Shown: piece after piece, positions 26,766 to 60,332 of the stretch
Layout of the letters: every line of letters begins with the position of its first letter
Position numbering within the stretch: position 1 is the stretch's first letter
NCBI GenBank assembly: GCA_905221605.1
Contig: CAJNDS010000722.1
Location: 16,914-80,913, forward strand
Direction: 5' to 3'
DNA: 64,000 nucleotides
DNA from: Symbiodinium natans
Taxonomy: Eukaryota; Sar; Dinophyceae; Suessiales; Symbiodiniaceae
Notes under the pieces: model-generated
Told to the model about the DNA's origin: nothing
Databases searched by the model: none
What the model saw: only the letters and a program-made list of their open reading frames with translations
Made by a program: the position numbers and the translations under genes

Positions 26766-26771
26766 TTTGAC

Positions 26772-37316: not shown

Positions 37317-37351
37317 AGTATTCATAGTACTAATTTATACGAGTCGTATTA

Positions 37352-37352
37352 A

Positions 37353-37411
<59 letters not shown>

Positions 37412-37422
37412 ATAGTAGCAGT
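37352..37422. repeat. TAG microsatellite at element edge
   Basis: About 20 TAG repeats, just inside the point where the third 2-kb unit is interrupted. It separates the host repeat from the RNase H-like coding remnant. Confidence 0.9.
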
Positions 37423-37474
37423 GGTAATGTGTCATTGCGGCACTGCACCTTAAAGTTACGGCATTAAGGCCAAT

Positions 37475-38089
37475 CCCTGCAGGTACTCCACTTATTGTTA
37501 AGTTACAACCTGATACCCACCTTGTTGCTCAATTTGACGGCAGCTGCCACGTGCAAGAAGGTATTAGTGTTGCGGGTGGTATCGTATGGTCGCCCAAACC
37601 AGTTCCGGTAATTCTTGAAACAATTGCCATCCCACTCCAGCCTTGTCCAGATTCTATGTTTGCGGAAATATGCGCCGCTGACGCAACGTTAGACAAGGCA
37701 TTATTTCTAGCTGCTAGCAATCAAATTAGGTGCGAAAACTGGACAACATGTGGCAAAAGTTAACGCACACACCCATTACAGTGCATTGGTCATACGTCCC
37801 TCGCGTCGGCAACAAAGTCGCTGATCACCTGGCAGGACTCCGCTACAAAGCACCCCTTCATGAAGATGTCTTCTTTGACTCGGGTGAGGGTCAGCCTTAT
37901 ATGCAAATAAACACTGAGTGCTTTCCGCCTATTCTGTTGCCTTCCAAGCAATGGCACCTGCAAGCTATACAGGATTTGCATTCCGGAGAGCTGAAACTAT
38001 TTTTCTTGAAGCCCCCCCCCACTCTGGAATCCGGAACTACTTTTGCGGTTTTGGCTCTACAATCGGATCAAGCCTCCCCCCAAGCTTGA
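37475..38089 (+). pseudogene. Broken RNase H domain (retroelement-type)
   Basis: One frame reads VAQFDGSCHVQEGISVAGG, then AEICAADATLDKAL. These match the first strand (catalytic Asp codon 37536) and helix A (catalytic Glu codon 37665) of type-I RNase H. After a stop at 37763 the protein resumes in another frame with ITVHWSYVPRVGNKVADHLAG, the C-terminal signature with the last Asp at 37823. The segment normally carrying the third acidic residue is missing, so the enzyme is dead. Such domains normally follow reverse transcriptase; none is visible upstream because the host 2-kb repeat ends at 37316. The frame continues past the domain towards the polymerase-like ORF downstream, after another frameshift near a C run at about 38075. 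Probably one long original ORF. Confidence 0.7.
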
Positions 38090-39065
38090 TACAACGTGGC
38101 CAGGGCTGGTCCAGTATCAAAGGCCATCTTTGCACCCACAGGGTAGATATTATGCCATACGGCACTGGCAAACGAGTAAAAGGCTAACATGTTTCTTGGC
38201 CATCGGACCGAACGCAATTGAAATCGACATGAAAGGTGCGCATTATACGCTTTTGCGCCTCCTTACATGTCACAGCCCTACTCACCCACCCCTCCCAACG
38301 TTGCTTGAAGCCAGGGAGCTATTTAGTAGTCACCTTGCACGCGCGCCCAAAGCACAAACAGTGCAAACCAAGCACTTGTTGCAAAGAGCAGTTGGAATGG
38401 ACAGCAATGCTTTCCTTCGGCATGTTTATGAAGGTAGTATTGCTGCTTATGCCATCCCCCCTGCCTTGGCAAGTTTTCTTGCACATTTGGTGCAGGCTAA
38501 AGCTACCCTCCAGGTTATGATCCAGCAAGGAATCCCTTTTTACCAACCGGATGCAAGGGTCAACAACAGGAATTGGGCAACTTTTGCACTTGAAGCTGCG
38601 GAAAGCTTCGTAATGCGAAAAGGGCTCGCTGCAATGCTCCCGTACTGCGCAGGCACAGTGCTTTGGGTACATGACGGGGTGTACGTCAAAAATAGAAACG
38701 CAGTTTCGCCCTTCATCGAAGGGGCTACTGAAGCGTTGGTTCAGCTCATCCAGGTGGGGCAGCACTGTCATCCACAGGTCACACCTAACCAGGAATTTGC
38801 TAACCTACAAGATGTCTTTGCTATTACCACCACGAAGAGTGAATTTAATGCGGCAGTTGATGCGTTAAACGCTGCGGGTATCGCGTGTCATAGCCCTGCT
38901 CTCCCAAAGCGCCCAAAGGCAACCACCAACAGGGTGTCCAAGCGCCTTATCCTGGAAGTTCAGGATATACTAGAGGTCGAGAGGCAAAGAGACGATAAAA
39001 GGAGACGCGTTGATGTTACAGCTGTTCCGCGTAGGGGATTGTGGGTAACACCCCCCTCGTTGTGA
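38060..39065 (+). CDS. Polymerase-palm-like protein, partial
   Basis: About 335 residues with no ATG at the left edge; the frame is entered by frameshift from the RNase H part. Counting from codon 38043, residues 33-48 (QGRYYAIRHWQTSKRL) and 58-71 (AIEIDMKGAHYTLL, Asp at 62) look like a fingers-to-motif A region. Residues 206-214 (TVLWVHDGV, His-Asp-Gly at 210-212) look like motif C. The order GR-x-Y, basic helix, D-x-x-x-x-H-Y, then HDG resembles replicase-like proteins of viruses and mobile elements, but I cannot assign a family. The C-terminus is basic (RRRVDVTAVPRRGLW). A role in copying the element is inference. It could instead be a distant family-A-like polymerase or an unrelated protein with chance motifs. 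Confidence 0.5.
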
Positions 39066-39157
39066 TGCGTGTAGTCCCCATTTCAACCACCCTCCCTCTT
39101 TCGTGATGGCGGCACCTTTGGCTCAGACCAGTTGTGAACGCCCGGGCACAACCAAAC

Positions 39158-39739
39158 ATGCTGGCCGCCACACGCTGCCTCCTGGCTTGGCGTTACCATG
39201 AAGCCATTGGTAGTCATTCCAGCACAGCTGACTTCGAACTCACAGTTCTCCCTGCTGCAGCGGGAGCGATCCTCGTGGCTCTCTTAGAGGAAAGCAAGTC
39301 GAACGAAGCCCTTTCCCCGTACCATAAGGATCGTTTATATCGAGGCGTCTCCTTTGGTAATCCACTGATCATTCACGAGATTGTCGAAGATCTGGATGAG
39401 GAAAAACTCCTACTTGCATGGACTCTCATTGAAGTCATTGCAAGGCTGGACGCTGCCACTCAACCTCGCGCTACCGTGTCAATGCTATGGAAAATAAGTG
39501 CACCAAATCTCCGTGCCATCTCGTGCGTTGGAGAACGTGCGCTTGCCCAATCACTTTCGGAGCACTTTTCTTTGACCCCCAAGTGGTCTTCACGAGTTGT
39601 CGGGGCTTTAATCGGGCACAAAACTGGATGGGGTAGGGTAGAGGCATTGCTCCAGGTCTTAACGCCAAGAGCAACAGTCATTGCCCGTGAACTGTGTGAG
39701 TGTGAACAATTCCCCTATCACTTCTTTTGGCCGTGGTAG
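39158..39739 (+). CDS. Unknown protein, 193 aa
   Basis: An ATG at 39158 (MLAATRCLLAWRYHEAIG) opens 193 codons. The frame can be extended slightly upstream only with a GTG. It is Leu/Ala-rich and probably helical: EIVEDLDEEKLLLAWTLIE, then GERALAQSLSEHF. No family recognised. The segment PLIIHEIVEDLDEEKLLLAW faintly resembles PIIVHRQED...HLLLAW in the 227-residue ORF at 44257, so the two may be distant relatives. It is unspliced and in the same direction as its neighbours. Confidence 0.45.
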   Translation: MLAATRCLLAWRYHEAIGSHSSTADFELTVLPAAAGAILVALLEESKSNEALSPYHKDRLYRGVSFGNPLIIHEIVEDLDEEKLLLAWTLIEVIARLDAATQPRATVSMLWKISAPNLRAISCVGERALAQSLSEHFSLTPKWSSRVVGALIGHKTGWGRVEALLQVLTPRATVIARELCECEQFPYHFFWPW

Positions 39740-39989
39740 TCATACCTTGTTTCTTCTCACACAATAGATCCAGAGCCACGTTATTGGCTTTAATGCCCCT
39801 GGCTGGACCCACCTCACTTTGGCCATCTGTTCGCAGACAGTGGAGCTATGTGCCAATGTGTCCACTGAGTGAGGGTGTGGTTGCCCCTTGTACTTTGTGC
39901 TCGGTGGGCTTTATTGCCGCTTATGGTACTCGTACCTTTACGTGCTCCTCTGTTATTTGCTTCGTTGTTTGATCACTGCTAACATTGTG

Positions 39990-41439
39990 ATCACCTACCC
40001 CTCCCCATCCGAATATAGTTGGCACATGCGTGACAGTTATTTTGCTCAAGCGCTCGTTATGGGAGCACTGACCCTTAACCCGCGCAATGGCCTTCTGTCT
40101 GGATTTGGCGCCGGATCATCTTAGGAAGATTCTTGGCTCTTCCATCCATACTTCGCCCTGCCTCTTCTCGTATGACAACAAATTCTGCACCGTGGAGTCC
40201 AGTATCGCCTTTTGCATTATGCAGCTGGCTGGCACGGTCTCCATTCGTGCACACTTGGATGCCGATGTAAAGTCCTCCGAATTGGTTGGGGCTGCTCTCC
40301 AGCTTATCCACCGCTGTTGGTCCAAGGGACTTGCCCTCCAGTTAAGGGAGATAGATGGATGCGGATGCCTTGAGTGGCAGCAATGGGGGTTGCAAACTCT
40401 GCGCGCTATGGGTTCAGTGAGTGTGGCGTGGCATAATGTACTTGCTGGCCACATCGGGCAGGCGTATATAAAATTGCGCTCCCGGTAACATTGCATGCAT
40501 CTTGCAGAATTGCCACTACCACCCTGGGCAGCTACGAGGTGTTTTTTCTTCGGTTGAGCTCGCTGTCCTGTCTGCCTGTTTTCCGTCTTCATGCACCTCT
40601 TCTCGCATACCAAAGGTCACCTCCCACCCTGCTTGCTCGTGCCACCCACCATGGTTTTTGGCCTGGCGTTCTTAAACGCCCCTCTGGGCCCCTCCCAGCC
40701 GAGAATGGCGCCGGTGCGCCACGAGTGCAAGAGTACCAGTTCACCACCCAAACGGCCTGCGCCTTTCACGAACAGGGTCTTGGTGCGACCTGTGCTTTCG
40801 TTGGCCAAATCGCCACCTTCGTCCTCGTTGAAGTTGGACTCGAGTTTGGATGTATGCTCAAGTACACCATGTGTTGCTCACCCTACACGCACGGAGAGTG
40901 GTACCTCCTCGACTCTACCCAACTGCGCTGAACTTCTTCCGCTCCTCCTGGAAAACATGGCCTTCCGACTTGATCTCAATCTGGTGCAAATCCAAGTAGT
41001 TGTCCAGGGACTGACTTTTGCTGTCCCTCTAGTCAGCTTTCTTGTTGATTGGCCTGTTGGCACGGTCTTTATTGCTGTTGCCTTCCCCTCCTTTGAGCAC
41101 ATGGTAGAGGCGCATCCGGTCCTGGTAGGGTCTTACTTTAGTAGGCGCCTCTGTATTGTCAATCCGCCTGATGGGATGCTCCCTCTCAATCTCACAATCG
41201 ATCCAATGCTGCCGGTCCTAATGCTGCAAATACTAATTGTGCAACACATGCGGCAACGGAGTGGTTACCTTGAAAGTCGGGCTTTCGTACTTTGCGATGA
41301 ACAGGGCTTTGTTGCGGACACGTGCACCAAAATCCAAACAGCGTTCCATGAGGATGCGAGGGTGCTTCTTAAGTACAAGTGCCTCACCTTCGAAGGTCAC
41401 CTGTTTAGATTGGTCTCCGCCTCCCACAGCCTACTTTGA
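39990..41439 (+). pseudogene. Paralogue 1 of the LVDWPVGT family, frameshifted
   Basis: Four frame pieces can be laid end to end against the intact neighbour at 41603. Around 40010-40090: SYFAQALVMGALTLNPRN. At 40087-40488: LDLAPDHLRKILG ... CLEWQQWGLQTLRAMGSVSV. At 40491-40931: FVGQIATFVLVEV ... GCMLKYTMCCSPY. At 40932-41439: LVDWPVGTVF ... HMRQRSGYLESRAFVLCDEQG. Each piece matches the corresponding stretch of the neighbour in order. At least three frame changes (near 40087, 40488 and 40930) break it. Function unknown. Alternatively, some breaks could be sequencing indels. Confidence 0.65.
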
Positions 41440-41602
41440 TGCTAGGACGGCTGGCTTTGCTGCATTGGTAACGCCTTCTTGCCGCCTTTTGGCTCACACT
41501 AGCGTAGTAGTGCTTTGGCTCATGGGAGTCTGAGGCTGCCCCGCGACGTCACTTTCCTGCCGCCACACTATACGACTCGTTGCCTTGCGGCCCAACTTGA
41601 GC

Positions 41603-43003
41603 ATGTCAACAGAGGAAGATTGCCTTGACAGCGACCCAAGGCAGCTTGAGTACGCCCGTACTCTTGCTCTGCCGCAAGCTCTGTCCTTGGATTTGTCCCC
41701 GGTGGCCTTGACGCTGGTCCTAGGCAATGACCCTCTAATTCCTCTTTGCGGAGGTGGAGAGGACCCTGTGCAAAGACTGACATCGTCAGTCGCGCAACGC
41801 CTTCTTGTGGATCTCTGCAACATCAAGGTTGTTCTTGCCCTGCCATTGCAGAGTGTTCATGGCACTGAAAATGCCGCTGATGCCTTCCAGGCTTGGCTTA
41901 GTTGGAGCATAAGACAAGAAATAAAGATCGGCCAGGTCTCGGGCGGCTTAGACTTTCATTGGCACATGCTTCATTGGTGCCAATTGGCTATCCAGTCTGT
42001 GGCCTGTCTTGCATCAGTTAATTCGCACTGGTTCCGACTTCTCTTGGAAGGTCTGAGGGGAATGCCCTTCTTTGCGATTCCCACGGGGGAACACGCCGGA
42101 GCGTTCTTTGGAGTCACGCCTCTTGACGAATGCACTTACGACGTCCATGCAGTTGGAGACTTCCCACTCGCGAGCCTCCGCTTCCTCCGACTGCGTTCAC
42201 CGTTTACAGCTGACTTTGCCAATCAAACTCCTGCAAGGCAGCTCCTGGGCGGGCGACTTGCTCATGAGCATCATTGGCCTGCCCAAATGGATTCTCCTCA
42301 CCCGCAGGCAGAGGGCCACTGTGGCAGTCTATGGCCTCGCACACAGTCCACCTTGCAGCGTCACGTGCCTGCCCCTTGGTCAGTCCGTGAAGCAGCTTCT
42401 CGTTGTAGGGTAAGGTATGCTGGCCTTGTTGCCAATCTCACCCTTGTGCGCGTTACTCAACATCAAGGCTGTATGATTCAAATCGTTTGGTGCGTTGCCC
42501 CCTTTCGACAAGAAGCTCTTGAAGGGGATACTCTCCAACTTACCACTCAACTTTTCCCTGCCTTATGTGCTTTGTGCCCGAACCGCCTGCAGCCAGATCT
42601 CCTTGGGGTCTTCGCTGTTTCGCAACTTAGTCACCTACCTGTCCCTCCGTGCTGTGCCCTGGTAGATTGGCCGGTGGGCACACCGTTCACTGTATATGCC
42701 TACAATGATCTCCTGGCTGTAAGGGCTGCGCATCCACCCGTCACTGTTGGCTGGCCGTCCTGGCACCTGCAGCTCCTCAACCCAAGCGATTGGAATGACC
42801 TACCTTGCCCTGTTTTGGCTTCTTGTAGCTGGCCTGTGTCCCTGTTGATGGTCAAATGCGTGCAAGCGATGAGAGAACGCAGTGGGCACCTCGAGTGTCG
42901 ATCTTTTGTCCTGGCCGACTCACAAGGGGCAGTTGCGAGTCCTGCGTCGGCAGTACTCCGAGCTTTTGCTCCGAATGCAAACATACTCCTGAAAATGCAG
43001 TAG
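41603..43003 (+). CDS. Paralogue 2 of the LVDWPVGT family, near-intact
   Basis: The ATG at 41603 gives 466 residues (MSTEEDCLDSDPRQLEYART...). The C-terminal third carries the block shared with paralogue 1: LVDWPVGTPF, AHPPVTVGW, AMRERSGHLECRSFVLADSQG and a final LLKMQ. Between about 42190 and 42413 another frame (LLMSIIGLPKWILLTRRQRA...CLPLGQSVKQLLVVG) looks more protein-like than the open one, so two compensating frameshifts may be present. No known domain. The gene is unspliced, in the same direction as all neighbours, and about 1.62 kb after paralogue 1, as expected for a tandem duplication. Confidence 0.55.
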   Translation: MSTEEDCLDSDPRQLEYARTLALPQALSLDLSPVALTLVLGNDPLIPLCGGGEDPVQRLTSSVAQRLLVDLCNIKVVLALPLQSVHGTENAADAFQAWLSWSIRQEIKIGQVSGGLDFHWHMLHWCQLAIQSVACLASVNSHWFRLLLEGLRGMPFFAIPTGEHAGAFFGVTPLDECTYDVHAVGDFPLASLRFLRLRSPFTADFANQTPARQLLGGRLAHEHHWPAQMDSPHPQAEGHCGSLWPRTQSTLQRHVPAPWSVREAASRCRVRYAGLVANLTLVRVTQHQGCMIQIVWCVAPFRQEALEGDTLQLTTQLFPALCALCPNRLQPDLLGVFAVSQLSHLPVPPCCALVDWPVGTPFTVYAYNDLLAVRAAHPPVTVGWPSWHLQLLNPSDWNDLPCPVLASCSWPVSLLMVKCVQAMRERSGHLECRSFVLADSQGAVASPASAVLRAFAPNANILLKMQ

Positions 43004-43200
43004 GGACCCCGCCCCTTCACTAATGCTTGGCCTTGGAAGCATGAGGGTCTCGTTCTCCAGTTTCACACTGCTTTCGCGGTTTTGCATTCTAGGGAATGTG
43101 TTGGCGGGACTTTTTCATGGGTGCTGTGCAGTGCTGGCTCAGGTCAACTCTGTAGATCCGAGGTAGTCCACCGCCTTCCCCTCAGGAAGGCATCACTGAC

Positions 43201-43821
43201 ATGGTTGAGGCATCCAGCCCTCAAATCCATATGGAACGTCTTGCTCCGCTGCTTGTGATTGTCTCGCAGTTGAGCCCTACGTCGGCCTACTGTAGGCCCG
43301 CCTCCAGGCACAGCGATAGACACCTTCACGACTGCCCATTGGATGCATTGCGTTGTATCCTCTTTGATGCGTGCACTGTGTGCTTGAGCCTGTGGTTAAT
43401 TATAGAGCCGCGCGAAGGCCTCTCTGAGCCTCCACAAGTGTACCTCTGGCGGCAACAACAGTCGAATTGGGGTTGTTGTTATACTCGCCTCCCTCACGTC
43501 GCTCCTGGAGTCGAGAATTATAGGGTTGCCCTCCCGTCCCTGAGGGAAACCGCGAGAGTGGCTGCTGTTTGTCGGCGCTGGGGAGGTATCATCGGGGCTT
43601 GGGCATCGCGCAGGCGTTTTGTGACATCGACGTCAACCTTCGCCAGTACACAGCGTGTTGTGCCCGTCGTGCGTGTGAACTGCACCCATTTCAAATTGCA
43701 GCTTCATGTTACGGAATTGATGGACTTGGGTGTCGCGCGAATGCGAAACAATGCTATACTCTTCCCCTCCTCTAGCCAGGCTAGGACCCCAGTCACTGGG
43801 CAAGTGGAGGAGGACGGTTGA
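43201..43821 (+). CDS. Unknown protein, 206 aa, possible third paralogue
   Basis: The ATG at 43201 opens 206 codons. The segment LDALRCILFDACTVCLSLWL can be aligned loosely with SSVAQRLLVDLCNIKVVLAL of the 466-residue neighbour. A downstream Trp/Arg region (AVCRRWGGIIGAW) sits where that protein has ASVNSHWFRLL. The C-terminal shared block is absent. If homologous, it is a strongly diverged or truncated copy; otherwise unknown. A perfect hairpin follows the stop by 15 bases. Confidence 0.4.
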   Translation: MVEASSPQIHMERLAPLLVIVSQLSPTSAYCRPASRHSDRHLHDCPLDALRCILFDACTVCLSLWLIIEPREGLSEPPQVYLWRQQQSNWGCCYTRLPHVAPGVENYRVALPSLRETARVAAVCRRWGGIIGAWASRRRFVTSTSTFASTQRVVPVVRVNCTHFKLQLHVTELMDLGVARMRNNAILFPSSSQARTPVTGQVEEDG

Positions 43822-43835
43822 GTTGCTCATGCCAC

Positions 43836-43855
43836 GTGAGTGCGCCCGCACTCAC
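43836..43855. promoter_or_regulatory. Perfect hairpin GTGAGTGCG-CC-CGCACTCAC
   Basis: A 9-bp perfect stem with a two-base CC centre, just after the stop at 43821. An identical 20-mer lies 231 bases downstream. It has no U tract, so it is not a bacterial-type terminator. It could be a protein-binding palindrome or an element-specific recognition site. Confidence 0.8.
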
Positions 43856-44256
43856 ACGGCGGTGTAGGAACCTGCATCTCTTCTCAAGGCAGTAGATCCA
43901 TTTACGTTCTCTGTACAAGTTTGACGAGCAGTGACCCCTCACCGCAATTTCCGAGCAGGGGCTCGGTGAAGCGGCTCAGGAGCTCCCGTTCGGGTTGCTC
44001 CCTTGCTCCCGAGTATTACCTGCGGAGAATCTTGTGAGGGTGCGGGAGTGATTTGATGTTGGGTACGTGAGTGCGCCCGCACTCACACGCCCTAGTCCCC
44101 CGCATGGATTGACAGTTTGTTCCTGTGGCTCATAGCCCTCTCAGCCGCGAACATAAAGGAGTGATGGTATTACCCGCTAACTTGCCCCCTTGTTCTGTGC
44201 CGCCAGGGCTCACAGGAGCAGGCGCCCGCTTGCCCTCCCCGAACTAACTGCCCGGC
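43856..44256. other. Intergenic region with duplicated palindrome
   Basis: About 400 bases between ORFs, with no protein-like frame. The only structure noticed is the second hairpin copy at 44067. Confidence 0.6.
44067..44086. promoter_or_regulatory. Second identical hairpin
   Basis: Identical to 43836-43855 including the following ACACG, in the intergenic space upstream of the ORF at 44257. The immediate flanks otherwise differ (GGGTACGTGAG against GCCACGTGAG), so the palindrome is the conserved part. Confidence 0.8.
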
Positions 44257-44940
44257 ATGGCTGCTTCGTTGGTCATTGGTGGCAGCCTTTACACTGCTGT
44301 CAATGGAGATGGCGACAGTGACTGGGAAAGATGCTACCCTTACGAACACCCGGAGATCTTTTCCAGCGAGCCCATCCTCGAAGGCCACGGCCACACTTGT
44401 AGTGCTGGCTGGATATCGCTCACCAAGCTCCTCGTACTGCAAGGAATCCGCGATGCCTCGGCAGCCCAAGGACGTCCTAATCAACGGACCCTCGCCATGG
44501 TTGCTGCGGCCGAACTCGCGCACTCTGTTGGAGGTCATCGTGCCTGGCTTGCACACCACCTTCGAGATCTTTCGCAGGATTTGAGGAACGAGCTTGCCCA
44601 GGAGTACGGGGCGTTACTGGCTATGTTCAGACGTCCGCCTGGACCACAGCAGAATGCCCTTTTAGCCTGGGCCAGGCCAATCATTGTGCATCGCCAGGAA
44701 GATTTTCCAATTTACCTCATAAAAGCGCATTTGGAGCAGCATCTTTTGCTTGCATGGCGTTTCACTGCCGATAAAGTCAATTTGCTTTTGCAAGCGGCTG
44801 TCCCCAATGATAATGCCGTCATTCTGGAGTGGGTAGCGTGCTTCCTCGATGAACGTATTGCTACCGACATTCTCGAGCATTTAGATGACGAGACCATGCA
44901 TCTGCTTGAGGACAATCGGCATTCGGATAGTGACATCTAA
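44257..44940 (+). CDS. Unknown protein, 227 aa
   Basis: The ATG at 44257 opens a clean 227-codon frame (MAASLVIGGSLYTAVNGDGD...). The C-terminal half is Leu-rich and helical (LIKAHLEQHLLLAWRF) and ends very acidic (DILEHLDDETMHLLEDN). No known domain. It may be a distant relative of the 193-residue ORF at 39158. Unspliced and collinear with the others. Confidence 0.45.
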   Translation: MAASLVIGGSLYTAVNGDGDSDWERCYPYEHPEIFSSEPILEGHGHTCSAGWISLTKLLVLQGIRDASAAQGRPNQRTLAMVAAAELAHSVGGHRAWLAHHLRDLSQDLRNELAQEYGALLAMFRRPPGPQQNALLAWARPIIVHRQEDFPIYLIKAHLEQHLLLAWRFTADKVNLLLQAAVPNDNAVILEWVACFLDERIATDILEHLDDETMHLLEDNRHSDSDI

Positions 44941-45238
44941 CGCTGACCTTGTGCGAATACGGAACAAACGACGGCCTAGTACATCGGTCGTTATCCATGG
45001 TCATGCGGCATTCCTGTAATGTCATGCTGTTGTCTTGACCGATTTGGAAAGTTGTAACCATTGATCATGTTATACTGCTGATGTAGTCTCCAACTGAAGG
45101 GAGCTGAGTCAGGGGAAGTTGGGAGCAAGCTTGTTGTTGTGTGACATTCTTTGCGCTGGACGGCACGGCTCTCAGGCAAGACTGCCCAGTCTTCCTCTAC
45201 CTTGCCCCATCAATTGGGTAGGCTGCCTCTTCTTCGCC
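44941..45238. other. Intergenic region
   Basis: About 300 bases with no recognised feature. The part from 45180 (upstream of the ATG at 45239) has decayed copies at about 52300-52370, so it was duplicated with the gene. Confidence 0.5.
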
Positions 45239-46108
45239 ATGGCATTGCAAGAGCCCCTTGGCCTGGAGAACCTGCAGCCTCCTCCATTGGTCGCCCCTCC
45301 GCTCGTAGCTGGGCGTGAAAACACCTGGATTACGGCGAGCCATGGCAGTTCAACCCTCCCCTTTGTTGTATCCCGGCCGAGTGCGGATGCAGGGGAAGCC
45401 AACTCGATAGTGCTTCTCCTCCCTGGTTGTGGACATTTCTATGTGGAGAATATGCACCCACTGCCTTGGCAAGGGGCCATCGAGTATCTGTGGAACAACC
45501 TGGCTTTCAAAAAGGCCGTCATTGCCTGCGCATGGCCTGTGGCGGGACAAGCAGGCTCACCGCCTGCCTGGATGCTGCCTGACGGTGCTGCCTGGACCAA
45601 GGCAGTGTATACAATGGAAATTCTACCGCTCCTACTGGCCGTCCAACGTGATGCGAGCCCTCGCATCTCCTTGCCCACATATCTCATGGGCCTTGGCTCT
45701 GGAGGAACCATCACCTACCAGATTGCAATTTCCGAGGCCCATGCGACCTTCCGGGCTTGTGTTTGCATGGGCCCCATTAGGCTGCCTTCTTTGCTGCCAG
45801 CCCCAACGGGCGGGGAGACACGAATTTTAGTCTATGGCGGACGAAAGGACGTAGAGACCTTTCAGCACCACCTTCGGATGTGCTACTCGGTGCGGGGCAA
45901 TCATCGCGTGCCTCCTGTCACAGAAGCCCTTTCCGAAGACTCACACTTTACCGCCTTCAAGGGCTACGGACGCACGCAGTACCCCTGGGCCCCCGGCCTC
46001 ACAATCCGCCAGGTGGTTATCGGCAAGGACCCGGAGCATGTGGTGTGGCCTGCATTGCTGAGCGATCCTGATTGGCTGCTGGCGGACCATATCGAGCTCC
46101 CGGAGTAG
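45239..46108 (+). CDS. Alpha/beta-hydrolase-like protein lacking the nucleophile
   Basis: The ATG at 45239 gives 289 residues; an upstream TTG would add 40 less plausible ones. The fold order fits an alpha/beta hydrolase: SIVLLLPGCGHFYVEN (first strand and oxyanion loop), PTYLMGLGSGGTITYQIA (nucleophile elbow and following helix), RILVYGGRKDVETF (acid loop, Asp204), SEDSHFTAF (His236). In the elbow pattern G-x-S-x-G, the central residue is Gly153 (G-L-G-S-G), so the catalytic Ser is absent and the protein is probably not an active esterase unless Ser154 substitutes. The sequence RDASPRIS is encoded by a perfect DNA hairpin (45650-45667). Decayed copies of the gene lie at 52.0-54.4 kb. Family assignment is by pattern only. 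Confidence 0.55.
   Translation: MALQEPLGLENLQPPPLVAPPLVAGRENTWITASHGSSTLPFVVSRPSADAGEANSIVLLLPGCGHFYVENMHPLPWQGAIEYLWNNLAFKKAVIACAWPVAGQAGSPPAWMLPDGAAWTKAVYTMEILPLLLAVQRDASPRISLPTYLMGLGSGGTITYQIAISEAHATFRACVCMGPIRLPSLLPAPTGGETRILVYGGRKDVETFQHHLRMCYSVRGNHRVPPVTEALSEDSHFTAFKGYGRTQYPWAPGLTIRQVVIGKDPEHVVWPALLSDPDWLLADHIELPE
45650..45667. promoter_or_regulatory. Hairpin GATGCGAG-CC-CTCGCATC inside the ORF
   Basis: A perfect 8-bp stem with a CC centre, within the hydrolase-like ORF. The decayed copies at 52036 and 52700 have GATGTGAG-CC-CTCACATC, a paired C-G to T-A change that keeps the stem. Confidence 0.8.
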
Positions 46109-46632
46109 TCGTCGGGGCAGGGTAGAGAGTGCCTTCCTTTTTCCATTTTAATCGATTTATGCGCGCCGGCCCTTGTGTTGCCGCTACAAACAGACCAGCA
46201 ACCGAGGTACGCCTGCATTCTGGTGCTACTACTGTGCACGGACAAAGTAAAGGATGCCATCGTCTCCAGGTCATTGCTTTGTACATGCAGCACATTGCAG
46301 CCACAAGTAACAGCCACCTGCGATGACACGCTGCATCCCTTTTCAGGTTGCGCGTTGGATGTGCCCTGGCTCAAGCTAAGGGTGGCTGGCTGACTGAACG
46401 AGGAACCCATTGTGTAGAGGGTTGTAACGCTCCTGACTGGTTTTTTCTCGCCTTTCTGCTTCTTCTCTCCTGTGTGTTGTGCTTTTTGTTTGGTCCTCCC
46501 TTTCCTTGAGTCCCTCCCTAGTTTTTGTAAGGGCTTTCCAGGGATCTTGGTGTCTGGAGGTTGCCTCGTGGTTCTCCGCTGCCTGTGGGGTAGTCACATG
46601 AGTTTGGCCTGCCATGTTCGGTGAGTGATGCC
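46109..46632. other. Intergenic region
   Basis: About 520 bases. Pyrimidine-rich around 46440-46530 (TTTTTTCTCGCCTTTCTGC...). No protein-like frame and no repeat noticed. Confidence 0.5.
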
Positions 46633-47409
46633 ATGGAGTCGTATGCCTGTCAACCGTACGCGATCCGGGTTGGAGCGCAAGTGCTCCAAGTCCACGTTGC
46701 CAGGAGAGGGCAACTCACTGCACTTGCCACTTTAGGGACCAGTGATGTCGCAATGACCAGGCAGATGCAAGCCGGCGTCATCCTGCCTCACGAACTCGAT
46801 GCTGCCGGTTGGTGCCGATACTTTCCGCCGGAAATACAACCCTTGTTGTGTCTGGACCATTCTGCCTTTTTGAGAAACAGCAACGCCGTCTGCTTCGCCC
46901 GGCAACCCACGGTTCGCTGTTTTCTCCTGCATGCATGGAGGCCAGGCATCGGCATCATGCCGCATAGCAGTGCCCTCATGGGGCGAGCGGTGTCCACGCA
47001 CAGTGCTTTGCCTGGTGACGCGATAGACCTTCCCCCTTGGGCGAGTGTTGTCACCGAACAAGGAGCGGGTAGGGAGACAGCCCTGTCTCCCGGGCCCTGG
47101 AAAACTCCATCACCTAATCCACCTAGGGTCTGCTGGCCGGATAATAGTCCTCGCCCTCCCATACCGCCGATTCCTCCACGTGTTGGAGAATACCCAGTGA
47201 GTGAGGTCAGTAGGATCGAGCCGCGAATTCCACATGGGAGGCCACCTCCCGCGCCAGTTGCAGCCGACCTGCCACTTGGCAGGTCCCTAGCCACCCAGGT
47301 CCACAGGTCCTTGCGGCGACCGCAATGCAGGCTATATGCCAGCTTCGCACTCTCAGTGCTGATCATGCGCCGGGGCCTCAGGAGCCTGAGGATCTCGCGC
47401 AGGCACTAG
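46633..47409 (+). CDS. Proline-rich unknown protein, 258 aa
   Basis: The ATG at 46633 (MESYACQPYAIRVG...) opens 258 codons. The first half is a plausible globular domain (QVHVARRGQLTALATLG, RYFPPEIQPLLCLDHSAFL). From residue about 150 it becomes a Pro-rich linker (PPIPPIPPRVGEYP, HGRPPPAPVAADLP). Its end overlaps the next ORF by 85 bases in another frame. The linker probably continued originally into that ORF, so 46633-49281 may be one gene with frameshifts. Family unknown. Confidence 0.45.
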   Translation: MESYACQPYAIRVGAQVLQVHVARRGQLTALATLGTSDVAMTRQMQAGVILPHELDAAGWCRYFPPEIQPLLCLDHSAFLRNSNAVCFARQPTVRCFLLHAWRPGIGIMPHSSALMGRAVSTHSALPGDAIDLPPWASVVTEQGAGRETALSPGPWKTPSPNPPRVCWPDNSPRPPIPPIPPRVGEYPVSEVSRIEPRIPHGRPPPAPVAADLPLGRSLATQVHRSLRRPQCRLYASFALSVLIMRRGLRSLRISRRH

Positions 47410-48866
47410 AAAGTAATCAGAATTTCCCTGAGCCCACCCCTAGCGGCGTACTGCCATTGAAACTGGCCTCGGGAGCCATTTCCGGCGAACCGCCTGAGCC
47501 GCAAGGTCTCCACCCAGAGATTGACTACAATGCATTACTCGGCTGCCTACTTCCACAGCTCCGGGCTGCTGAGTCCGCAGGAGCCCATGTCCTGCTCTTA
47601 GTCACGGATAGTCGCTGCTTCTTGTCTATTCCGCACTTCCCCTACTTTGTCCGGCATTTGGTAGCACGCATGCAGTGGGAAGGCCCGTTTAAGGAGAGGT
47701 GGTTTCCCATCTTGGTTAACACCAAGGAAGCGGGGCTAGCTTCTGTGCACTTTACGTGGGCGGGGCCCGAAATTCTGGCAGTCCTCAGAGTCCTTGCGCC
47801 AGGGGTGGTCTTGATGTTGCTTGACCATGACACCTTGTTCACTGCCAGGTGGGAAGCAGAAGAGCTGCGAAGGTTTGCAGTCCTCGATCTACTGCCCAAT
47901 ACCCTCTCGACGGAGTCACTGGGCAGCATGGAAGTCGAGACGGACGAGACACAGCCCTGTGGCTCGGTGCCAAACTCAATTGGCATGGTTTGTGCGTCCG
48001 AGGACCAGCTCGAAGCAAATGGGGGATTGGTCCTCTTCTACCCGAATGCTCCGGACGGCAAACATCCCCGGCCCCCTCGCTTCTGCATCCCTGGCAACGT
48101 CGCTAGTGCGGTGACCTCAATTGGTACTGCGTTGAGCCGAGCCCTGCAGCTAGTCATCATGCCCAGTGAAGTGCCCACTCCATTGCCTGGTATGCATGAG
48201 CAGGTGCCGTTGGACCAGATCCATTATCGGCAATGTCTACGCAACACCCCTCTTGCCGGAACCACTGCTCACAAGCACTCTGACTTTGTGTTTGCGTGGG
48301 CACTTTTAGGAAGATACATACATGAGGTTGCGTGGAAAACGGCCGACCTTACTGCTGGCCGGCCAGAGCCAGACATCCAGTTTGGCGCCTCCCCAGTCAG
48401 GCAGGTCAGAGGGGTCAAAACATGGGGACAAGGCCCATATGAACAGGGATTTCTTCCCTTGCTCATGGGTTACGGCGGCTCGCACTCCCGTTTGGCAATC
48501 CTGCCTGGTCCTGACTTATTCATGGCGAACCGATACGCCGAGGTTATACCCCCTCCTTTTGTGCATGGATATGGTGCCGTCGGTCTGGGGCAACGAGGAC
48601 TCCGTCCCTCTGTGGGCCTCTGTTGGGAAAAAGGGCAGTGGACCAGTGCGGCTCCAGCTCTTCCCTGGGGTCCTCATGTTTTGGAAGAAAGATGCCCTAT
48701 CTTCCTGCAGGGCCACCCCGAAATGGCGCAGTCGACCCAATACCCCAACTGGGCCGCTTGCTCTTCTTGCTGCCGCTGCGCATACATGGCCAATCTGCCT
48801 TCTCCATCGAGTTTACCCAAGGGCATCGGTCATGCTCCTTACACCGGAGTTGGCGGATGTCCCTGA
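47325..48866 (+). CDS. Glycosyltransferase-like protein with DxD motif
   Basis: The ATG at 47325 gives 513 residues, but true continuity with the upstream Pro-rich ORF is likely. Residues about 82-165 alternate strands and helices (SAGAHVLLLVTDSRCFLS, APGVVLMLLDHDTLFTARWE). The D-H-D after a hydrophobic strand resembles the DxD metal/sugar-nucleotide motif of GT-A transferases. Later parts, GFLPLLMGYGGSHSRLAILP and DLFMANRY...VHGYG, would suit the acceptor half of such a fold. I cannot name a family. The last ~90 residues look out of frame: from about 48600 the frame at 48322-49281 (TPELADVPDWAKKWFAVAG...) is more protein-like, implying a frameshift. Confidence 0.45.
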   Translation: MQAICQLRTLSADHAPGPQEPEDLAQALESNQNFPEPTPSGVLPLKLASGAISGEPPEPQGLHPEIDYNALLGCLLPQLRAAESAGAHVLLLVTDSRCFLSIPHFPYFVRHLVARMQWEGPFKERWFPILVNTKEAGLASVHFTWAGPEILAVLRVLAPGVVLMLLDHDTLFTARWEAEELRRFAVLDLLPNTLSTESLGSMEVETDETQPCGSVPNSIGMVCASEDQLEANGGLVLFYPNAPDGKHPRPPRFCIPGNVASAVTSIGTALSRALQLVIMPSEVPTPLPGMHEQVPLDQIHYRQCLRNTPLAGTTAHKHSDFVFAWALLGRYIHEVAWKTADLTAGRPEPDIQFGASPVRQVRGVKTWGQGPYEQGFLPLLMGYGGSHSRLAILPGPDLFMANRYAEVIPPPFVHGYGAVGLGQRGLRPSVGLCWEKGQWTSAAPALPWGPHVLEERCPIFLQGHPEMAQSTQYPNWAACSSCCRCAYMANLPSPSSLPKGIGHAPYTGVGGCP

Positions 48867-49281
48867 CTGGGCTAAAAAGTGGTTTGCTGTCGCTGGTAAA
48901 GTGCCGGCCAAGGGCACTGCTTTGCTGGTTACCTTGAGAGAAGACAAGGGGGATGTGGCCTACCCAGGCATGTTTATAGAGCTCCTTGCCCCGAAGAAGC
49001 TTTTCACCGGCCCTGGAGAAAGTAAGGCCATGCAGCCAGTCAATATAACCATTGCCCTGCTCTTGACTGATGAACAGCACAACCAATTCGCGCAACGACC
49101 CTCACTGCCGAGAGTCAGCCAGCTTGAGGTTCTGCCCGGAGGAGCCTCTACCCCGCTTTGGGGTGCTCTGTTACACATGCCTAGGGAAAGGCAGCATGTT
49201 GCATTGGGCGTTCCGCTAGAAGACTCGCCTCTTGATGCCATCCGGCAGCCACTGTGGTTGCCGGCCTTCCCACAGATTTAG
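48600..49281 (+). pseudogene. C-terminal part of the preceding gene, shifted frame
   Basis: This part of the frame (open from 48322) reads well: PDWAKKWFAVAGKVPAKGTA, LLVTLREDKGDVAYPGMFIE and NITIALLLTDEQHNQFAQ, ending at the stop at 49279-49281. No start codon of its own is convincing. I take it as the continuation of the DxD-containing ORF after an indel somewhere in 48580-48850. Unknown function. Confidence 0.4.
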
Positions 49282-49472
49282 TGCTTGTCCTCCTTATCGG
49301 GCTAGTGAGGGAACTGGCACGACACATGGGCACAGCTCATTCACCCGGAGGTCTGCCAAGTCTTCAGAGGCAAGCACGAAACGCAAGCTGCGCAGGCATC
49401 GCTTACTGCGGGTCCGGGGGCTTCCAACCCCTTGCAAAGCTTCCTCAACCTTTGGCTTGCGGAGGAACAATC

Positions 49473-50165
49473 CTATCGCAAAGAATGGACGCCAACGCTG
49501 CTGAGTGGCGTGTTAGCTACGCTGCCTGACTCTCCGCTGCCCGGCCAAGAGGACGCCCGGACTCCTGCGCTGTGGCATGCGGAGTGTCTACGCCTGTCCC
49601 ATGACTCGTTGAGCAACGAGCACGATCCGAGGACTCGAGCCAGCATCTTTGCGCTCGCGGTTGGTCCCGCCTTCCTTACGCGCCTCTGTGCTACAAGTAG
49701 CCCCCGGTACAAATCGTGCACATCAAAAGGGAGCTTATGTGTGTCCTTCTCCTTGTTACCCGGTATGCGAACGATGCGGCTGCGAACAAATTCATTGCTA
49801 GCAGTCGTGAGCCTATCAACCGCTTCGACATAGGCCCGAACCGATTCATTGCCATGAGCGGTGTACAGGGTGAGCCGGCTCGTCAGGCACGCAAGGAGTA
49901 CTCCTAGAAACGCGCAGGATCGTGTCTTCCCGCTGCCGGGCGCACCCGTTATGAATACAGAAGTACGATTAGCGGCCAGGCCGTACGAGCACGCTCCCAG
50001 CAGCGCTGCCAGGTGTCCGTCCGCCCCCCAAAAGGTATCACAGCCGCTGTCCAAGCTCGCAAGGAAAGTCGGCCTCTCGCTTTGGACGAAGACGGCTCTC
50101 AGCAGCTGGAACCACCAAAAGCCAAGCCTCGAGGGCCTAGCGAGCCCAGCGGCACCCGCGATCAT
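49473..50165 (-). pseudogene. UPF1-like SF1 helicase fragment (N-terminal motor part)
   Basis: On the minus strand, ATGs at 50198 or 50165 open about 230-241 residues. Counting from 50198, residues 81-92 read VFITGAPGSGKT, a perfect Walker A. They are followed by LTLYTAHGNESVRAYVEAV, which fits motif Ia of UPF1/DNA2-type superfamily-1 helicases (usual form APSNxAVD). The frame ends at 49473 without Walker B or any later helicase motif, so only the beginning of the first RecA domain remains. It is the only helicase signal in the block and points away from the 597-residue ORF, whose ATG at 50164 overlaps it. It could be a fragment of an independent insertion. Confidence 0.6.
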
Positions 50166-51954
50166 GCAAAGCAACACAGTCTCGGTCTGTGATCTCATGT
50201 GGCGCGCACTTGCAGCGGGACATCACTTTGGTAAGAATGTCAAACCTCGGCCCTACATGAACCTGCGTGACTCGCAACACCTCACAACACACTGCCAGCA
50301 GCTTCGGGCATATAGGGCCTATGAGGTGTTTTTGAACGGCATACCGAACCAGCTGCAAGACTCGGGTATGCTGATCGGAATCGCTGACACGCTACTGCAT
50401 CTGCCTGAAACGTTTCCGGCAGCGTATTTGAAGGTTTATGACCCTATCATCACGCAGTGCCTTAGATTGTCGGGGGCATTGCAGCATTTCGACCTTGCTG
50501 AAATGTTGGATTGCCCGGTCCCGCAGCTGGACAAAGCAAGGCTTTCGGAGTCCCTGGTGGGGTATGGCTTTCTTACCACAGCGCAGTACATCGCGGATCT
50601 TTTCTCTGCGGTGTCGGACTTGCCGAGTGTCATCAATGCCAGTTTTCCTGCAATGCTCAGCTACGCTGACCCAGATTATTGGCTGGGTGCACTTCTGCTC
50701 GCATTCGAGTCCCACCAAAAAGGTCCCCTGGAGCGTACGGCAGGGCTGCCCATTGTTATTGGTTTTCCTGAATCTGACAATAAAATTACTGACCTGCAGA
50801 TCAATGTGCCGCCTGCAGCCATGGTGGCCTTCTTGGCTGGCCGCGCTTATCGGTGTCCCAAGTGCCCTACTACCAAATATGTGATGGACGCGCACAGTGG
50901 ACTGCCACAAGTCACTGGCCAAGCCTCCCAAGAAGCCTTGCAGGCATGGGCCGCAGCTGCTAAGCACACGGACGTGGAAACGGCCAGGCTTGCCCAGCCC
51001 AGCCTGAATACGTTCCTAGGCATCACGCTGCAGGGCACACAGACACTTGGGCAAAGGCACTATCAAGAATTTAGGCCGGACCTCCCCCCTGCCCATTTCC
51101 TTGACGCCATCCGGCTTGCTCTTGCGGCCTCGGTGGCCAACCAAAACATTGAACATTTTTGGTCAGTTTTTAACTTGGAATGGCCTGACACTTCTCACAG
51201 AATGGCTGTTTTTCTACGGCGAGTGTTGCCCCTAGAGTGCTTGCTCTCCTCGCCCTGTGCTGCGCCTGTGGAAGCGAACACTGCAGCAACCTCGCCGGAG
51301 GTCGTCAGCATCTCTTCCGAAACCTCTCCCTGCCCGATGGATGACATGTCAGACGCGGAGGACGAACCCGAGGCACAGGTGAATGATTGGCGCTTCTCGG
51401 AGCTGCGAACCACTGACCTTGCAGCTTTGCGAGAAGTGGATGTCTCCGCCCCTTTCCGGCTGCCAGTCATCTTTGATGCGCATTGGAAAGGGATCAGCAC
51501 CACACCCACCAAGCATGGGCCCCAACGTCCCCAAAATGCGTGGTATGACGCAGCCACTGCTCATTGGGCTGCCATTAAGGGGCTCATGCGAGCCAAACAT
51601 CCAACCAAGCAGCGCCTCAACAGCTTCTGGTTTAGGATGTACTGTCATGGCACCCCCAAGGACCCTGATCCTTCGGCCCTGCGTGCTGCAGTTACCTCCT
51701 TCCCCTTTCAGTATAAGGACGAAGGTGTTGTGCAGTACAGGCAAATCCAGGAAGCTGTCCGGGTGATGTGGCACGCGGCCCAAACCTCAATGACAAGATA
51801 CATGCGTATCCCCATTCCGGACGGCATCCCTGAGTGGGGGGTTGATGAGCAAGAGCTGCCTCCAATGCAGGTCATGCCCAGCCGTACGCGTTCCCATACC
51901 ACCTCAGCTGGCCATCGCTCCCGGCGTCCGGACTGGGATGGCTCCTGGCAATAG
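50164..51954 (+). CDS. Unknown protein, 597 aa (intact)
   Basis: The frame is open from 49861, but the first ~100 codons lie over the antisense helicase. The ATG at 50164 (MQSNTVSVCDLMWRALAAG) is the natural start. It is the longest clean ORF of the block. Visible parts: a helical N-terminal half (IADTLLHLPETFPAAYLKVY, LVGYGFLTTAQYIADLFSA); a YRCPKCPTTKYVMDAHSG segment with one CxxC; AASVANQNIEHFWSVFNLEW; an acidic Ser-rich linker (SISSETSPCPMDDMSDAEDE); and a basic tail (SRTRSHTTSAGHRSRRPDW). No known family. It could be a nucleic-acid-binding or structural protein of the element, but nothing proves this. Confidence 0.55.
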   Translation: MQSNTVSVCDLMWRALAAGHHFGKNVKPRPYMNLRDSQHLTTHCQQLRAYRAYEVFLNGIPNQLQDSGMLIGIADTLLHLPETFPAAYLKVYDPIITQCLRLSGALQHFDLAEMLDCPVPQLDKARLSESLVGYGFLTTAQYIADLFSAVSDLPSVINASFPAMLSYADPDYWLGALLLAFESHQKGPLERTAGLPIVIGFPESDNKITDLQINVPPAAMVAFLAGRAYRCPKCPTTKYVMDAHSGLPQVTGQASQEALQAWAAAAKHTDVETARLAQPSLNTFLGITLQGTQTLGQRHYQEFRPDLPPAHFLDAIRLALAASVANQNIEHFWSVFNLEWPDTSHRMAVFLRRVLPLECLLSSPCAAPVEANTAATSPEVVSISSETSPCPMDDMSDAEDEPEAQVNDWRFSELRTTDLAALREVDVSAPFRLPVIFDAHWKGISTTPTKHGPQRPQNAWYDAATAHWAAIKGLMRAKHPTKQRLNSFWFRMYCHGTPKDPDPSALRAAVTSFPFQYKDEGVVQYRQIQEAVRVMWHAAQTSMTRYMRIPIPDGIPEWGVDEQELPPMQVMPSRTRSHTTSAGHRSRRPDWDGSWQ

Positions 51955-52035
51955 ACAGCAAACTGTCATCTGAGGGCTCCTACTGACGCCATGCGAACGC
52001 ACCATTGAGTCCTTTCATGGCATGCTGCCTAGCGT

Positions 52036-52053
52036 GATGTGAGCCCTCACATC
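52036..52053. promoter_or_regulatory. Hairpin GATGTGAG-CC-CTCACATC
   Basis: Perfect 8-bp stem, CC centre. It lies in the exact 31-bp block shared with 52698-52728, in otherwise decayed sequence. Confidence 0.8.
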
Positions 52054-52699
52054 TCCTCGCCGATACATGCCGCAAGACTACCTCGGGATACTCTTGGTTT
52101 GGCAACCCTCTCGTGGTCTATGCCACGGATTGGATCGTGCTTGTCTTTTGTGTGCTTACAGCTTGCAGCTGTGAACACCCTTCTGGGTCGGCCCCGCGGT
52201 GTGCCTGTGGGAACGGGGGGCCTTTCTTTCGTGGTTGCTCCACTGGCCATCTGCCACGGACTACCCTGGACCGGTCCTGCCTGGATGTTCCAGCTTTGTC
52301 ATCGGTAAAACGGCCAATCTTCCTTTCCTCTGCCCCCTCTAGGTGGGCAGGTTGCCCGCTTCTATGTGCTACGACCGTGTGTGAACCCCTCGGACTTGAG
52401 TGTTGACCATCTCTCGTCTGGACGGTGACACCCCCGTGTCGTACAACGGCGTCATGCCAATTGGGAGAGACCAGCTAGGGGATGCTGCTTCTGGGCTGTG
52501 GACACTTCTACGCGGAGATCAGGTTTCCACTTCCCTGGCAATGTGCCATCGAGCACCTGTGGACAACCTGGCCTTCACGAGAGCCATTCTCGCCTGTGCT
52601 TGGGTTGCTGCGGGGTTCCCTGCCTGCTTGGGTGTATATCTCTGCTTGCGTCAAAGCAGCCATACATGACTACCTCCCCATCGGTAGGTGGCCAAGCGT

Positions 52700-52717
52700 G
52701 ATGTGAGCCCTCACATC
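52700..52717. promoter_or_regulatory. Hairpin GATGTGAG-CC-CTCACATC, second copy
   Basis: Identical stem and centre to 52036-52053. A third, imperfect copy at 53567-53584 (GATGTGAG-CC-CTCCCATC) has one mismatch. Confidence 0.8.
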
Positions 52718-52957
52718 TCCTCGCCGACGTCTGTCGGTTTGGGCATGGAGGGTCTGATTCTGGTTATTGAACCCTCAACCCTCACCGTTGCTTGGCCTTG
52801 AGTGCGAAGTTTCGACTGGGGGACTCTCCCGCTTCCTGCGGGGCAGGTGGGGTCCCCGCCTGCTTGGGTTTACCTGATGGCTCTGATTGGAACGAAGCAG
52901 TCAAGCCTGCTTTGGCCGTCGGACGAGACTCTTGTGAGTCAAAAGAACGTTGCGCCT

Positions 52958-54146
52958 TGTGCTCGGAGAGGCTCCACTGGCTGACCACCATGGAGTGCTC
53001 TGGGCTGGTCCTACCCTTTGTTCTTGCCGTTAAGTCCCCACTGGCTGACCACCATGGGGCAACTTTATACTTCGGATCAAGAAGGTTGACACCTGCAACG
53101 TCCCGTGCCAAGGCACGACTATGCCCCACCTGTGATGGCGGACTTGTGAACCTTCTCGTGAACGGCCTTGGCTGGTGCTGAATGTAGTCGCATCGGTGGC
53201 TGCATGATGGTGGTTTTGTGAATCTGGCAACGTCGCCTTTTGCGACGCACCTGCGCACTCGGTGCTACATGTGTGCTCCCGGCCTCTTCGACGATTTCGA
53301 GTACTGAGTGCACAGGGTGACCTAGCAGTTCGGCGCGCTGGCTGTGGACACTTCTACGTGGAGATTATGCACCCGCTGACTTGGCAGGGAGCCATTCCCC
53401 ACTTGTAGAACAACCTGGCCCTCTTGAGACTCTAGAGGGTCACCCTCGTCTGAGCTTGGCCTGCGGCAGGGCAAGTGGGCTCCCCGCCCGCGTGGATGTT
53501 ACCTGAAGGCTCTGATTGGATCAAAGTAGCAATACCATGGAGATCCTTGCACTTCGGCACCAATGTGATGTGAGCCCTCCCATCTCCTTACCGACGTACC
53601 TCGCGGGTTTGGGTTTGGAGGGACCTGATGCGTGCCGATGCGCAGGCCAGCGCCAAGGTTGCGTGGCCTTGTGTGAGATGCCTGGACTGGGAGGTTCCTC
53701 GTTGTCATTATAAACCCTGTGGCGTTAAGGGTTTGGTAACTCGCTGTGGACTCTCCCCGTGGAATCGGTAGCTGCAGCTACTCTCGCCCCCCCTCTGGCC
53801 GTGCGCGGGCACCTCTCTGGGTGGGCACTTGTACGCCAGGTTGACTGGAGAACCCTGTGCTCGGAGCTACTCCACTGGCTGACCACCATGGAGTGCCCTG
53901 GGCCGGTCCTGCTTTGATTGTTCTTGCTGTTAAGTCCCCACTGGCTGACCTCCATGGGGCATATGCCCCCTGTGCCGGGCGCGGACACCTCTCTGGGTGG
54001 GCACTTGTACGCCAAGGTGAATGGAGCACCCAGAGCTCGGAGCTACTCCACTGGCTGACCACCATGGAGTGCCCTGGGCCGGTCTTGCCTTGATTGTTCT
54101 TGCTGTTAAGTCCCCACTGGCTGACCACCATGGGGCATATGCACAT
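52958..54146. repeat. Repeat with paired CACTGGCTGACCACCATGG motifs
   Basis: Three copies of a ~100-bp segment, near 52958, 53860 and 54036. Each holds the 19-base motif (or a one-base variant) twice, about 65 bases apart, with GTTCTTGC(C/T)GTTAAGTCCC between. The last two copies are 176 bp apart. Confidence 0.8.
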
Positions 54147-54568
54147 CTTTCATCCCCCTAGGGAGTCTGACTTGCAACATCCTTTCGCCATTGAGTGTCG
54201 GTTGTCTGTCCTTGACAACGAGTACGTGATCCGAACCTCTTCTGATGACCTCGGTTTGAATAACCGCTGTCGCACCAGTGGCTACATGATGGTGGTTTTG
54301 AGAATCTGGCAATGTCGCAATTTGCGATTCCCCCACAAGCTCTGTGCTTCCTTGTGAACCGGGACTTCATTGACGACCTCGAGTACTGAGTCCGTGGGGT
54401 ATCTAGTAGTTCAGCGCGATTGCTCGCTTTGTTTCTTTGGTGTTTGTTTGCTTGGTGGTTGCTTGTTGTGTCTGGCGGATTGTGTGCGCTGACTTTGTTT
54501 CACCCTTTACGTCGAGCCCAACAAGACCGGCCTACTGTGCTACTGATGTAGTAAAGAGGCGTCAGTCC

Positions 54569-54580
54569 AAAAAAAAAAAA
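54569..54580 (+). other. 12-A tract at right edge of the ORF block
   Basis: Twelve consecutive A directly before the first unit of the 1.8-kb CTGCAG-rich array. A poly(A) end at a boundary is what LINE-type retroposition of a plus-strand transcript leaves. This is inference, since no target-site duplication can be tested: the left border lies in a different host repeat. Confidence 0.5.
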
Positions 54581-55509
54581 GCCAAGGGGCCTACAAACCC
54601 TGCAGCTGTAGGCTTGCTGCAGGGGTCTGCAGGCTTGCTGCAGGCTGCTGCAGGGCCTGCAGGCTTGCTGCAGAGCCCGCATGCTTGCTGCAGGTCTGCA
54701 GGGTCTGCAGGTTGCTGCAGTGTTACATGCAGGGTCTGCAGAACGCAGTAAGCAGCGCAGCCCGAGCTTGAGAGCTACCTTGAAATTGCAAGGGCTTGGA
54801 GCCTGAAGAGCCTCGAAAAGGATGCTTGTCTCCGGTCATAAGCCCTTGCGTGTGCCCCCGAGCCCCCAATGGCAATGTTGGACGCTGAAGGTCGGTCTGA
54901 CATGACCAACGTGTTGCAACATTGCCATGGGGGAAAGGGGATTTTCAACAACATTTTATTGATTTGGGACAGGCCCTTTGCCTGGGGGTTTGGAGAATGT
55001 GCCTCGAGTGAAGCCAAATCAGACCCCAAAAAGACACAAGAAGCGTAGGACACGTTTGAGTGCCCCCGCAGTTGCAATTCAGCTTGTCATGTGCAATACT
55101 TGTTCCGTTATAATGCTATTGCCAACAGTTTTAAGCGACCGCTGACTATCTTTGCGCCCGACCCAACATGTGGTGCATGCTTTGCGTGTCTCCGCAAAAT
55201 TGAAAGCACACTTGCCATGTTTTACGGCCCATTCTAGGGTCACATTTTTGGGCCCCAAAGCGAAGCCCGAAATGGGATCTTTTCTAAGAGTTTCGAATCA
55301 GGCAGACCCAGTTTTGGGACCCAATTTCTGGCCTCAAAATGAGGGCCAAAAACTGTGCGATTTCTGATGAGAAGACACACTTTTGAAGCTCGCCAAAATT
55401 TTGCCCGACGTGAGGACCGCTCCCGACATAAGACAATAAAAATGCACCGCTGCGTGGCAAGCGGTCGGTGGTGGGCCTGTACTTATTCATATAGGCGCCA
55501 TTCAGGTTG

Positions 55510-56490: not shown

Positions 56491-56639
56491 TTGCAGTTCT
56501 ACAGGTCAGGGGCTTTCAAGCTTCCTGCAGACTCTGGGGCCTTCAAGCCTTTGTGTTTAAAAGGGGAAATGGACTCCGTGTGAAAGCAGGAAAATGTCCA
56601 AGTAATTGAGGACTGGAAGCCATCCAGGCTGGGGGGAGA

Positions 56640-60258: not shown

Positions 60259-60332
60259 AGTTCACTACCCATCCGACCCCGCCCGCCAGTGATCGGGGCG
60301 AACCAGACGGGGAATTGCATCCTGGATAACTT

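Follow-up and report, generated by a model that had tools for sequence, protein, structure and literature searches.

The stretch analyzed here, hereafter the window, comprises 64,000 nucleotides of the dinoflagellate Symbiodinium natans (C722:16914-80913) and holds, between two host tandem arrays, a block of open reading frames (ORFs) that is regarded, with a probability of about 90%, as one degraded copy of a giant long interspersed nuclear element (LINE) of ~32.9 kb. LINEs are usually compact and carry one or two ORFs. The third unit of the left-hand 2.03-kb array has its last base at 37316, and 12 consecutive A, the last of them at 54580, stand shortly before the right-hand array, whose matches begin at 54586. 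A sequence-only reading by a model had drawn the limits of the block at 37317..54580, and both landmarks stand, but similarity to other copies of the element starts only at ~37427, behind the (TAG)n microsatellite that occupies 37342-37426; since positions 37317..37426 lack homology to the other copies read, they are taken as lying outside the element. The remaining stretch, 37427-54580, is a gene-dense, mostly plus-strand block, whose ten longest stop-to-stop ORFs (698, 550, 489, 351, 336, 323, 293, 271, 249, and 230 amino acids, aa) exceed, rank by rank, those in each of six simulations of the block by a third-order Markov model, whose longest ORFs reach 205-365 aa. The flanks hold long ORFs too (331 aa in 12000-27000 and 458 aa in 54586-64000). 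Of the ORFs listed at first, several proved to be pieces of a single broken frame of 3121 aa (HEL, see below). CpG is slightly depleted in the element (0.69 and 0.68) relative to the flanks (0.75), and TTTAGGG repeats occur in the window.

Genome-wide searches covered an assembly of 759,417,921 bases in 2543 contigs. A probe of 1944 bases out of the central part of the block (genes g233 and g336) was scored at the best 40 of 246 candidate places, window included, and surveys with the reverse transcriptase (RT) and HEL were scored for the best 82 of 363 and the best 68 of 722 candidates, respectively. The scored probe places are 95-100% identical, and the gene order of the block recurs at this identity on many contigs. 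Besides the window, stretches of five other copies were read (C902, C1745, C1879, C1860, and C114), and several partly damaged copies together give the order, on one strand, ORFA, Pol, g210, g317, g489, g221, g233, g336, HEL, and poly(A). The window and four of the five other copies have a common 3' end, followed by 10-12 A and then by differing flanks, while the contig of C114 stops before this end; tails of 10-12 A are found in all six copies in which the 3' end was read. Upstream, C902, C1745, and C1879 extend beyond the start of the window copy, and in other copies the element continues there for ~13 kb. The longest copy read without a large nested insertion, C902, measures 32,855 bases from its 5' start, which is common to C902 and C2187, to the bases before the tail, and no match between its 5' and 3' ends was detected when this one copy was tested for terminal repeats. 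Moreover, the C1879 unit begins within ORFA, ends in poly(A), and is flanked by a perfect 12-bp target-site duplication, which marks it as 5'-truncated; the window and C1860 appear to be truncated at other points. The copy in C1745 carries an 84-base inversion at its 5' end, and 5' inversions are frequent in LINEs. C114 was also considered as a 5'-truncated copy, but its RT lies farther upstream and it is more likely interrupted by insertions.

ORFA is open over 1887 aa in C1745, where an inversion ends it; in C902 the frame runs ~223 aa further, but is split upstream. It contains motifs, conserved down to a 32%-identical relative, which we take to be those of a C5-DNA-methyltransferase. The corresponding profile, PF00145, appears at E=0.067 only in that relative, and ORFA's own protein gave no profile match, PF00145 included. 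Pol is split in C902 into endonuclease-like, RT, and RNase H pieces, in that order, followed by a conserved C-terminal extension. The RT matches RVT_1 at E=1.1e-13 (51.8 bits against a cut-off of 29.6) and, in NCBIfam, a group II intron RT family at E=3.5e-6. An RNase H piece had been noticed at the outset, and this is borne out by RVT_3 (E=4.7e-11 in C902) and by a match of that region in PDB (E=0.0016). The endonuclease matches in C902, PF14529 (E=1.6e-4) and PF03372 (E=3.1e-4), are both below curated cut-offs and lie upstream of the RT as expected. Nine RT copies, among the best 82 of 363 candidates, lie in open frames of 2217 aa, a length that would fit the Pol pieces forming one protein. 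The piece first described as palm-like is the C-terminal extension of Pol, with no profile or PDB match indicating a second polymerase. Alone, this extension gave a weak PDB match (E=0.066); it has five relatives in public data, with up to 50% identity, one of them also with RNase H, and its structure prediction had too low a mean predicted local distance difference test score (pLDDT), 34.9, to be used.

Behind Pol, ~19 kb of sequence holds about seven extra frames, namely g210, g317, g489, g221, g233, g336, and HEL. Among this cargo, g317 and g489 are paralogs (38% identity over 169 aa). HEL is open over 3121 aa in C1745, with Walker A (residue 1565), DEAQ (1680), and GDxRQ (1706) motifs, presumably those of a superfamily 1 helicase. 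Its profile matches, AAA_22 (E=1.1e-4) and AAA_19 (E=2.3e-4), are both below cut-offs, and its C-terminus has 14 relatives in public data with up to 41% identity. A structure prediction for the window ORF at 50164 was equally unusable, with a mean pLDDT of 33.5. Searches of PDB up to E=10, by protein or profile, found no match for ORFA, HEL, g336, or the Pol extension, apart from the weak one of the extension alone, and the first three of these had no match in NCBIfam either.

The window copy begins inside the RNase H part, and several coding stretches of other copies are absent from it (Table 1). In the RNase H part, 78 bp of other copies are missing at 37730; HEL has small gaps at 47966, 48578, and 51887, lacks ~970 bp near 48790, and contains a 354-bp inversion that adjoins a 2462-bp loss. 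This inversion puts a helicase-like motif on the minus strand and so accounts for the AAA-like minus-strand ORF, which, together with the ORFs at 46594, 47214, 48310, 49309, and 49858, is a piece of the single 3121-aa frame of C1745. Copy-specific gaps of ~59-100 bases within coding frames occur at 37730, 47966, 48578, and 51887 and in HEL of other copies; introns were considered as their cause and rejected, as the inserts inspected are coding-like and lack GT-AG ends. At 52961-54424 lie diverged repeats, among them a 2 x 176-base pair, as well as decayed g336 fragments. The window copy is apparently 5'-truncated and internally deleted, and is not a working element.

Table 1. Features of the element copy in the window.
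Feature	Position	Strand	Basis or remark
Junction zone with (TAG)n microsatellite	37317..37426	.	Outside the element; no homology to other copies read
RNase H part of Pol, 5'-truncated, frame-broken	37427..38009	+	RVT_3 E=4.7e-11 in copy C902
Pol C-terminal extension ("palm-like" by eye only)	38010..39065	+	
Cargo gene g210	39107..39739	+	
Cargo gene g317 region, g489 paralog, frame-broken in window copy	40437..41439	+	
Cargo gene g489	41534..43003	+	
Cargo gene g221	43156..43821	+	
Cargo gene g233	44248..44940	+	
Cargo gene g336 ("hydrolase-like" by eye only)	45098..46108	+	
HEL, broken remains of ~3120-aa frame	46594..51954	+	
Inverted 354-bp HEL piece with Walker A motif	49690..50043	-	Exact inversion relative to copy C1860
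3' non-coding region: decayed g336 fragments and 2 x 176-bp repeat	51955..54568	+	
Poly(A) tail at the element's 3' end	54569..54580	+	

Several side observations concern the relatives of the element and the insertions within it. Positions 44257-46200 of the window are 100% identical to C598:98432-100375, which is therefore a very recent sister copy or a duplicated stretch. RT relatives on C501, C1959, C583, C80, and C2170, with 73-87% identity and stop codons, probably represent older, decayed sister subfamilies. The possibility of nested elements had also been raised, and none is seen in the window copy, although they are present in C1745 and C1879. In C1879, an insertion of ~9.9 kb (~1042815-1052700) contains a frame of 2701 aa and, close to its edges and 9.5 kb from each other, the two copies of a 19-base direct repeat, and is perhaps a long terminal repeat (LTR) element. 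In C1745, an insertion of ~9 kb (~1120040-1129080) lies in the RNase H frame and carries an RT-like frame (RVT_1 E=9.4e-4, below the cut-off). In C114, two frames stand between parts of the element, one a Ty1/copia-type RT (RVT_2 E=4.5e-16) and the other weakly RT-like (RVT_1 E=0.046).

In 22 of the 40 scored g233/g336 copies, an RT precedes the two genes in the same direction, at a distance of 9.1-10.6 kb in 12 cases, and in none does it lie on the opposite strand; the remaining 18 are on contigs without a listed RT. The larger spacings in C1745 and C1879 are due to the nested insertions of ~9 and 10 kb. Of the 68 scored HEL copies, 14 are preceded by g233/g336 in the same direction, with a spacing of 6.4-7.3 kb in 13 cases. 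A positional test was carried out on six of the nine copies with the RT-bearing 2217-aa frame, leaving out C83, whose cargo match was already known, and two lacking contig, and g210 was found at the predicted place in 6/6; the HEL match of C224 was known before this test. Selection on the frames was gauged by pN/pS, for which one frame served as reference and the remaining copies were scored against it for silent and replacing changes, in single-change codons only. Total values are 0.20 for ORFA, 0.00 for the endonuclease (4 silent, 0 replacing), 0.47 for RT, and 0.38 for RNase H, and, in the cargo, 0.18 for g210, 0.21 for g489, 0.43 for g221, and 0.40 for HEL (74 silent, 90 replacing). These ratios indicate purifying selection on most cargo frames.

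Taken together, the initial suspicion of a large mobile element finds its answer in the repeated gene order, the definable ends, and the LINE features (RT, RNase H, endonuclease-like domain, and poly(A)), and the element is, judging from its sequence, a high-copy, recently spread non-LTR retrotransposon. The ends, the truncation, and the domains fit target-primed reverse transcription of one long RNA. The whole unit would be transcribed as a single RNA, the endonuclease would nick the target DNA, and the RT would reverse-transcribe the RNA at this nick, beginning with the poly(A) end of the RNA, so that an early stop of copying could leave 5'-truncated copies like that of the window. The separate frames might be translated from trans-spliced mRNAs, which are usual in dinoflagellates, and the cargo may serve the life cycle of the element itself: the helicase-like protein perhaps removes structure from the RNA so that long cDNAs can be made, and new copies may be marked by the methyltransferase-like protein. 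A further step, tentative and held to be rather doubtful, is that this LINE lineage constitutes a multigene, operon-like replicon, whose 33-kb RNA would act as transposition template and also as the source of about nine spliced-leader trans-spliced mRNAs, with the cargo needed for spread. Spliced-leader relics in the window are at chance level. A leader-like sequence, at edit distance 3, stands at the 5' end of C902; no better match occurs on either strand of the 262,230 bases searched, and 20 shuffles of C902 yielded one leader-like match of distance <=4. C2187, which has the same 5' start, lacks such a match. The match in C902 is no more than a hint.

Several results weigh against the reading as one giant LINE. 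None of the copies read is intact from end to end, and a target-site duplication was found in only one of five copies with both ends, and not in C902, C1745, C1860, or the window. At the predicted place of g233 in five stretches, the gene was in place once, inverted once, replaced by the 3' region once, and without a match twice. Relative to the 68 scored HEL copies, g233/g336 is downstream once, opposite once, and absent within 60 kb in 52, and the RT is upstream on the same strand in 20, downstream in 1, opposite in 4, and not listed within 60 kb in 43. Moreover, g317 has a pN/pS of 0.73, changes are too few for g233 (1 and 1) and g336 (2 and 2), HEL has higher values in the window and C1879 (0.57 and 0.62), frame-shifting gaps are common (4-8 per compared copy in HEL), and all these comparisons share a reference frame. 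The absence of RT near many HEL copies, as well as the 55 of 78 RT copies on contigs without a scored g233/g336 copy, would suit two separate elements, i.e., an ordinary methyltransferase-LINE that adjoins, or once transduced, an unrelated 20-kb repeat. However, only the best candidates of each survey were scored, HEL without RT is what 5' truncation predicts, the 12-bp duplication encloses the whole C1879 unit, and g210 lies behind Pol in every tested copy, with most cargo frames constrained, which makes this explanation quite improbable.

Still less probable is an integrated virus, or virus-like element with a LINE-type RT, an origin that the sequence-only reading had entertained. Many unknown genes, helicase-like and methyltransferase-like proteins, and an operon-like order would speak for it. 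Against it, three queries found no confirmed relatives in viral contigs, Pfam scans of the block and C902 gave a single row named after a capsid (Smaco_capsid, E=0.35, in the AAA-like piece), which is at noise level, and the ends are of LINE type. If the reading as a single giant LINE is true, a 33-kb LINE with constrained cargo would mean that units of many genes and great length can be inserted by target-primed reverse transcription, and the element would be a tangible means by which dinoflagellate genomes capture genes and grow.

In the open-licence literature, as far as the accessible parts of those papers go, no LINE of such size or cargo was found, SymbioLINE-Dnmt and the Terminons being nearest, and the size and the constrained cargo appear to be new features. 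SymbioLINE-Dnmt is described as a Symbiodinium LINE with two ORFs, target-site duplications, and conserved untranslated regions, but no poly(A) (de Mendoza et al. 2018, PMC5890265). In it, a methyltransferase ORF precedes one for endonuclease, RT, and RNase H, an arrangement that the present element, with its methyltransferase-like ORFA and its endonuclease-like piece, appears to share. Compared by description only, the present element differs in that it has tails of 10-12 A, its first ORF is longer, and ~19 kb of additional genes are present, and because of these tails it is not filed as a SymbioLINE-Dnmt member. Terminons are presented as endonuclease-deficient giant Penelope-like elements of up to 40 kb with hammerhead motifs, located at telomeres (PMC6431247). 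They resemble the element in being giant retroelements with accessory ORFs and mostly 5'-truncated copies, whereas the element has a LINE-type RT, an endonuclease-like domain, RNase H, and poly(A). The same source states that the pieces moved by L1 3' transduction are rarely longer than 1 kb in the human or 3 kb in the mouse (PMC6431247); there, too, extra sequence 3' of the RT moves along, but here it amounts to ~19 kb, is common to many copies, and is mostly constrained. Moreover, Symbiodiniaceae LINEs are stated to be highly divergent remnants of an ancient expansion (PMC8045281), a statement on which the finding bears because the 40 scored copies are 95-100% identical. Finally, if the present reading is true, the delivery of such long multigene units would parallel that by Terminons and Polintons (PMC6431247), but take a different route.

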